Below are positions 29,246-29,774 of a DNA stretch of 64,000 bases, piece by piece. The stretch spans positions 1 to 64,000 of the forward strand of contig CADCGB010000013.1 of the NCBI GenBank assembly GCA_902800815.1. The letters run 5' to 3'. The DNA comes from Fibrobacter succinogenes. GTDB lineage: Bacteria; Fibrobacterota; Fibrobacteria; Fibrobacterales; Fibrobacteraceae. Made by a program: the position numbers and the translations under genes. The notes below the pieces were generated by a model. It did no database searches. It worked only from the letters and a program-made list of their open reading frames with translations, and was not told where the DNA came from. The number at the start of each line of letters is the position of its first letter. The stretch's first letter is position 1.

Positions 29246-29302
29246 CTCACCTCCAGAAAAAAAGAGGCTCATGTGAGCCTCTTTTTATTTTCTGGAGGTG
29301 AG
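29246..29302. terminator. Long inverted repeat: bidirectional terminator overlapping the ssrA 3' end
   Basis: Arms CTCACCTCCAGAAAA (29246-29260) and TTTTCTGGAGGTGAG (29288-29302) are perfectly complementary. The inner AGAGGCTCA / TGAGCCTCT (29263-29271, 29274-29282) extends them into one long hairpin with a 2-nt loop. The right arm contains the last bases of the tmRNA acceptor strand. T runs occur on both strands, so it can end both rpmA and ssrA transcripts. Confidence 0.8.
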
Positions 29303-29523
29303 GGGAGTCGAACCCCTGTCCAAAATCACGTCCATGTCCATTCCTACAAGCTTTCCCTTCGTATTTAAGGTCTCGCCTCGTCCACGCCCAAGAAGGTCGG
29401 CGCAGATTTCAGCCAGCCTAGTGAATCTCGGACTCTAGCCCCAGGCATGCGTGAATCCTATCCCATATTTCGTCCGGACGTTCATCCCGATGGGAGCGGA
29501 ACGAGGCCCGGCGTTGCCGCTAA

Positions 29524-29553
29524 TTAGGCAGCGAGTGCGTAGTTTTCGTCAGC
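29524..29553 (-). CDS. tmRNA proteolysis tag reading frame
   Basis: Resume codon GCT, then nine codons in all giving ADENYALAA and a TAA stop. The ALAA end is the signal read by ClpXP-type proteases. It is translated only from tmRNA on a stalled ribosome. Confidence 0.9.
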   Translation of the reverse strand, partial: ADENYALAA

Positions 29554-29637
29554 ACTTATTTTTTTTCAGACTTTTTTACGAGTGCCCTCGTCTGAGACCT
29601 CGGCTTGCAACTAACACTTTCTGGTTGAGACTTGTCG

Positions 29638-29733
29638 ACTAAATGCGAGCCGGCGAGCATTTAGGCCCTTAAGCTCACGAAGTGAGCGCAAGGCCCGTAG
29701 GGCAAAATCGCTGCGAGTAGCAGTGATTTTGGC
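29638..29733 (-). repeat. 96-nt hairpin-rich insertion in the tmRNA D-loop
   Basis: Between TGGTTT and CGAC of the tRNA-like domain. Read on the minus strand it forms three stems in a row: CAAAATC-A-CTGC / GCAG-C-GATTTTG, GCTCAC-TTC-GTGAGC, and CTAAATGC / GCATTTAG. It carries no protein motif. Exact edges are uncertain by 1-2 nt. Confidence 0.8.
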
Positions 29734-29766
29734 AAACCAAAGCACCCCCGATATTATCGGGTTTAC

Positions 29767-29774
29767 CAAATATA
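29767..29774 (-). promoter_or_regulatory. -10 element of ssrA
   Basis: TATATTTG on the minus strand. Initiation near 29762 would leave a leader of about 13 nt before the mature 5' end, for RNase P to remove. The palindrome CCCGATA-A-TATCGGG sits across that leader. No clear -35. Confidence 0.5.

Follow-up and report, generated by a model that had tools for sequence, protein, structure and literature searches.

The 96 nt that interrupt the tmRNA gene (ssrA) in the 64,000-nt stretch of Fibrobacter succinogenes DNA analysed here (the window; positions 1 to 64,000 of contig CADCGB010000013.1, genome G000) are probably not an intervening sequence but the core of a hairpin unit that normally stands upstream of ssrA, with 49 nt between unit and gene absent, likely through an assembly collapse. 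The interruption most likely does not represent a form of the tmRNA gene, and the gene probably does not carry an insert that is spliced out. This removes a would-be new form of the tmRNA gene and shows how upstream units and stretches missing from metagenome assemblies can mimic one. The unit before ssrA is itself real and common in the genus, and it offers a testable case of palindrome spread and DNA-level correction, with a possible effect on tmRNA maturation.

The ssrA locus of the window

The gene occupies 29293-29749 of the minus strand and encodes the tag ADENYALAA (Table 1). As the initial annotation had noticed, 96 nt at 29638-29733 (-) separate TGGTTT from CGAC, or in full GGGGGTGCTTTGGTTT (29734-29749) from CGAC (29634-29637), and the three stems described for them were reproduced on folding (-37.9 kcal/mol, z -3.89; none of 200 shuffles folded as well). 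Taking the 96 nt out of 457 does leave 361 nt, which had been called the normal length, but this is a few bases off the 357 nt of the intact relative G044 and the 356-359 nt that ARAGORN reports at most of the loci given to it. The view that all other parts of the gene are intact did not hold up: the bases after CGAC read AAGTCTCAACCAGA, where intact relatives have AGGGTTACCG or a near variant followed by AAGTGTTAG, and the outer strand of P2 is lost. In the predicted fold of G044 the outer P2 helix is formed by nt 20-28, the strand that is gone in the window; the 3' strand of P2 is the same as in intact relatives, with no change that would compensate. The Rfam model RF00023 scored 115.8 bits on the window gene, with a fit from 29639 that skipped most of the 5' end, against 158-184 bits on complete, uninterrupted copies of the genus.

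The gene body differs from that of G070 at 7 of 332 positions and from that of intact G044 at 8, in a comparison of 61 bodies from which ten genomes with off-pattern ssrA were left out. The acceptor stem is still predicted to form, with pair probabilities of 0.85-1.0, and smpB is intact in G000. Ten nucleotides of the core, CCAAAATCAC (29723-29732), are complementary to the P2 3' strand GTGATTTTGG (29320-29329), probably by chance; a compensating helix between the two was considered and dropped, since in G020 a core identical to that of the window stands ahead of a normal ssrA start.

Table 1. Features of the window's ssrA locus
Feature	Position	Strand	Basis or remark
Promoter-like TATATTTG, upstream of unit	29767..29774	-	Sequence; inside 43-nt stretch identical in G020
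T, unit copy of ssrA 5' end, GGGGGTGCTTTGGTTT	29734..29749	-	Predicted pairing with acceptor 3' strand retained
Three-hairpin core, 96 nt, of type A unit	29638..29733	-	R1 match 29623-29747, 140.2 bits; covariation; 96/96 identical in G020
D region CGACAAGTCTC, part of unit	29627..29637	-	Identical in G020
T' remnant AACCAGA, first part of inverted copy of ssrA 5' end	29620..29626	-	Comparison with G020
Junction, 49 nt absent relative to G020	29619..29620	-	Absent: palindrome (19 nt) and ssrA nt 1-30
ssrA from nt 31 to 3' end, 5'-truncated tmRNA gene	29293..29619	-	
Tag reading frame, ADENYALAA	29524..29553	-	
Terminator palindrome, stem reaching into last ssrA bases (CTCACCTCCAG ... CTGGAGGTGAG)	29246..29302	-	

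Comparison with related genomes

The origin of the window's arrangement is best seen against G020 (locus L176), which is identical to the window over 43 nt around the promoter-like box, at 139 of 143 positions over the unit and at 96 of 96 over the core. The box has the form TAnnTTTG, which we take to be the promoter motif of this group. After the shared unit G020 continues with TCACCCCCGGTGAAACACCGGGGGTGATCTGGTTTCGACAGGGTTACCG, 49 nt, and then AAGTGTTA, its contig stopping 38 nt into ssrA, while the window runs directly from AACCAGA into AAGTGTTAG; the 49 nt it does not have comprise 19 nt of the palindrome and nt 1-30 of ssrA. Because the identical core is followed in G020 by a normal ssrA start, the apparent 5' end of ssrA in the window is that of the unit, and the 16 nt of GGGGGTGCTTTGGTTT, previously read as a 5' piece of the tmRNA, are the unit's copy of the ssrA start and not the gene's own 5' end. 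Nor is the gene unchanged on both sides of the insert, as it would be around an intervening sequence: AAGTCTCAACCAGA is unit sequence, as in G020. On this alignment evidence the 96 nt are not a plain insertion, and a unit has come to touch a 5'-truncated ssrA. The initial annotation was thus right that a hairpin-rich, repeat-like element occupies the site and mistaken in having it inserted into an otherwise normal ssrA, the element being the unit that normally lies upstream. No copies of the 96 nt turned up elsewhere in G000 by blastn, and the covariance model of the unit (R1) gave a single strong match there; the type A core is not a dispersed repeat in this genome.

A second case is provided by G070, which shares 98.2% and 98.8% identity with G064 on the two sides of the same place, where 208 nt are absent from G070, including a second unit present in G064. 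In an exact search of 12 genomes, the motif TGGTTTCGACAGGG of the gene's own 5' end was absent from the assemblies of G000 and G070. It was also absent from G048, where ssrA is 5'-truncated as well, and from G003, where ssrA has TTTGGCATCGACAGGG. Units also precede complete ssrA genes in G064, G039 and others.

ssrA across the genus

The RF00023 search of 80 genomes of the genus found ssrA contiguous in 64, cut by a contig end in 12 (G014, G015, G016, G020, G024, G049, G051, G053, G054, G058, G071 and G078) and without a match in four assemblies (G002, G025, G033 and G079). Both halves of the gene are present on separate contigs in G014, G016 and G078. By length and 5' end 59 of the 64 contiguous genes look normal. 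In G000 and G070 a type A unit is joined to a 5'-truncated ssrA, in G048 (L038) a type B unit is joined in the same way, and in G069 (L041) and G074 (L042) internal stretches are absent, both within the tag region, so that tag codons are lost. The copies at L038, L041 and L042 are probably assembly artefacts. Tandem copies occur in G011 (L045, three) and G030 (L046, two), with one normal copy each, counted among the normal loci. One further locus, L043 (G014:C134), holds a second, unrelated tmRNA with the tag ADSKKSVANNNYALAA; the genome is listed at 8% contamination and the contig is probably foreign.

Assembly collapse or deletion

We rank collapse ahead of a real deletion. The assembly would have collapsed across a strong palindrome within a conserved gene, dropping the 49 nt between unit and ssrA, and behind the unit the living cell would have an ordinary tmRNA, about 357 nt long. 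This reading is favoured because contig ends cut ssrA in 12 of the 80 genomes, because five of the 64 contiguous loci miss stretches (G000, G070, G048, G069 and G074), because the stretches missing from other copies (L041 and L042) include tag codons, and because smpB is whole in G000 while the outer P2 strand is gone without compensating change. All five abnormal loci stand in assemblies of about 60-100 contigs; missing stretches were seen in 0 of 16 assemblies of at most 30 contigs against 5 of 48 others (p 0.32). Several points speak against collapse: the junction has no long shared word to explain a misjoin, nearly the same join is found in two species, which would also be expected of real deletions recurring at a palindrome, many type A loci were assembled across such palindromes, and the window contig is otherwise continuous.

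A real deletion of the 49 nt, by which the upstream unit was fused to ssrA in the lineage and the gene left weakly active or as a pseudogene, is accordingly a serious possibility, if the less probable one. Strong palindromes provoke deletions, and the near-identical joins in two species, the acceptor stem predicted to form and the conserved gene body all count in its favour; the unit's copy of the 5' end would now be the acceptor strand, with the hairpins hanging from the D region. Against it stand the outer P2 strand, lost without compensation, the split D-loop, the intact smpB, and the artefactual look of the stretches absent from other ssrA copies in similar assemblies (L038, L041 and L042).

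Intervening sequence, longer tmRNA and known gene forms

An intervening sequence within ssrA, either excised or retained as an extra arm, had been proposed for the window, and alignment of ssrA across Fibrobacter genomes showed in its place an upstream unit joined to the gene; we consider it very improbable. The argument for it comes from the extra tandem copies, two in G011 and one in G030, in which a core of the same kind sits at exactly TTT^CGAC. These three copies each adjoin a normal, uninterrupted ssrA, begin AGGGGTG and so lose the first acceptor pair, and have no TAnnTTTG box within 80 nt upstream, and in the window itself the bases after CGAC belong to the unit and not to ssrA. Excision or a split tmRNA finds no support at the window gene, whose predicted transcript would lack the outer P2 strand.

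No more credible is the reading that makes the unit a standard component of a longer tmRNA, about 505 nt in length, starting at the unit's T and enclosing a T'/T hairpin, of which the window would have lost just the inner T'/T hairpin: ARAGORN does start at the unit's T, giving 505-511 nt, in ten loci with an intact ssrA start inside (L009, L011, L012, L032, L052, L054, L059, L068, L071 and L076), but the gene's own GGGGGTG is kept in 41 of 41 loci (GGGGGTG was required by the search pattern, and the three fused loci were the only ones without it), by hand count it is missing from 15 of 41 unit T copies, and 17 of 74 ssrA genes have no unit. Because GGGGGTG is kept in ssrA and lost in those 15 unit copies, the gene's own acceptor strand is the constrained one. 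The unit probably does not belong to the mature tmRNA, and the ten ARAGORN calls are an annotation trap, the tmRNA being started at an upstream unit in front of an intact gene.

PMC11915505 distinguishes standard, group I intron and permuted tmRNA genes, and places the group I intron in the T-loop. The window has the gene body and tag of the standard form. A group I intron was rejected, as the T-loop is uninterrupted and the insert sits in the 5' half, and so was a permuted gene, RF04321 scoring 25.9 and 21.1 bits against a gathering score of 47. The same model passes 47 in G011 and G030 (49.6-55.8 bits), where its matches span neighbouring tandem ssrA copies.

The units upstream of ssrA

Most of the ssrA genes examined are preceded by a unit whose first element copies the 5' end of ssrA. 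Type A units consist of T (GGGGGTGnnnTGGTTT), the three-hairpin core, TCGAC... and T', which repeats T in inverted form, after which ssrA follows; type B units (81 nt) consist of a T copy, a hairpin, an inverted piece, a second hairpin and CTCACC. Covariance models were built from 36 type A sequences (R1) and 10 type B sequences (R2). The R1 match in the window is full length (positions 1-125; 140.2 bits), the window being among the 36 training sequences and the score therefore not independent; two type A units of G150, from another genus of the family and outside the training set, scored 79.3 and 55.4 bits. A census of 77 ssrA loci with 74 intact 5' ends (72 of the genus, plus G150 and G140) placed a type A unit as the nearest within 70 nt at 42 of the 74 (41 at 20-27 nt and one at 52), a type B unit within 70 nt at 10, units farther off at five and none at 17. 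In an Rfam scan of 12 loci no family matched the units above its cut-off; Clostridiales-1 reached 34.2 of 48 bits in L023.

The inverted copy follows the gene. For this test 49 of 70 R1 matches were used, L174 not among them, and 41 had an ssrA start close by; of the 25 informative loci, 23 have a T' that resembles the T of ssrA more than the unit's own T, with one opposite case and one tie. The summed match of T' to ssrA was 537, against 510 +/- 3.4 in 2000 shuffles, none of which reached 537. The comparison within loci weighs more than this sum, because related genomes are not independent. Six T'/T junctions folded alone gave -27 to -39 kcal/mol. At normal loci T' would pair with nt 1-15 of the tmRNA in the precursor, and the acceptor stem could form only once this pairing had been opened or cut; a full T'/T hairpin is not needed, as T' is only partial in many loci. 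By eye, some junctions appeared to fall exactly on strain-variable columns, an uncounted and only suggestive impression.

Whether normal units act as RNA leaders that steer tmRNA maturation, and are kept by selection on RNA structure, is a separate question, and we regard this role as plausible but unlikely. Their hairpins are conserved, with 16 of 29 pairs changed on both sides; T' tracks ssrA; the unit stands between promoter-like box and gene at many loci, as judged by eye; and units are found in another genus, in G150. The 29 type A stem pairs comprise 1044 cells, of which 98.6% are paired, and two-sided changes number 177 cells against 56.5 in shuffles, although one of five measures, that of further pair types, did not exceed shuffles (28 vs 28.8). 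The 29 pairs are part of the 36 predicted by RNAalifold, seven having been left out. Against a leader stand the 17 of 74 ssrA genes without a unit and the rarity of G-U pairs, found in only 7 of about 1029 paired cells, a count valid for the 29 stem pairs only, since six of the omitted pairs (columns 10-15 with 119-124) are G-U-rich. So few G-U pairs are unusual under RNA selection and more like palindromes maintained at the DNA level. The palindromes are probably maintained at the DNA level, for example by copying across a hairpin, at least as much as through an RNA function.

Related units at other gene ends

Units of this kind concern the ends of tmRNA genes, tRNA-Pro genes and protein genes at their stop codons. 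Ten of the weak dispersed matches of R1 were read; nine (L127-L132 and L134-L136) adjoin tRNA-Pro (TGG), where antisense copies of the tRNA 3' end enclose a type A-like core that sits between CAGAT and TCGAAC, and L133 has no tRNA. The core site corresponds to TTCGA of the T-loop in tRNA-Pro, and inverted copies and terminators are repeated around the core.

R2 matches were found in all 80 genomes, with 4-53 copies each, ssrA units included. Among 50 dispersed type B units, 26 share at least 7 nt with the adjacent flank, where 3.4 would be expected and the maximum over 300 shuffles was 8.2; the 50 comprise 43 chosen from the upper part of the R2 list and 7 of the 13 matches in G000, and some represent one gene end seen in several genomes, so that not all are independent. 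At the gene end G000:C19:73860 we read 11 full units, 10 partial ones and 9 loci with none (30 of the 80 genomes' loci), and the far copy follows the gene end, being for example TTATGCGATGT in G000 and TTATGCGATAT in G020. From sequence comparison, the dispersed type B pattern looks like insertion with copying of the target. Many type B units at gene ends (L137-L146 and L187-L226) were seen to start with a copy of the adjacent flank of up to 13 nt.

The units may arise by insertion at gene ends, the end being copied both directly and inverted. We tentatively propose that hairpin units of Fibrobacter and its family insert and recopy the gene end in this way, keeping the host gene whole, and that at ssrA the strong hairpin over the tmRNA 5' end evolves with the gene. 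This points to a class of bacterial hairpin elements that imitate the end of the adjoining gene, which we did not find in the literature searched: the matches listed in open-licence PMC literature included none that dealt with ssrA leaders of Fibrobacter or with palindromes that copy their target.

Several known systems come close. Rickettsia palindromic elements are palindromic repeats within structural RNA genes, and the Fibrobacter unit is likewise a palindromic repeat at such a gene; by description it differs in standing before an intact gene, with its own copy of the start. MITEs resemble the units as dispersed non-coding elements with presence or absence at one gene end and a direct target repeat, and the target-site duplication is seen in the dispersed type B units (the 26 of 50 above); the Fibrobacter units differ in holding an inverted copy of the target inside, in that no terminal inverted repeats were noticed by eye, and in that the PF01797 search identified no parent transposase. 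REP/RAYT elements, as presented in PMC12306157, are short hairpin DNA scattered in many copies, some of which lie near stop codons. The Fibrobacter units are also short dispersed hairpin DNA in many copies, yet they measure about 80-145 nt, contain several hairpins and carry a copy of the neighbouring gene end. An origin from REP/RAYT is not supported, the Y1 (HUH) transposase (PF01797) being absent from G000 and present in only 27 of 80 genomes, against 80 of 80 for type B. At the other end of the window's ssrA, the gene end CTCACCTCCAG recurs inverted as CTGGAGGTGAG past the terminator, an end-mimicry like that of the upstream units.
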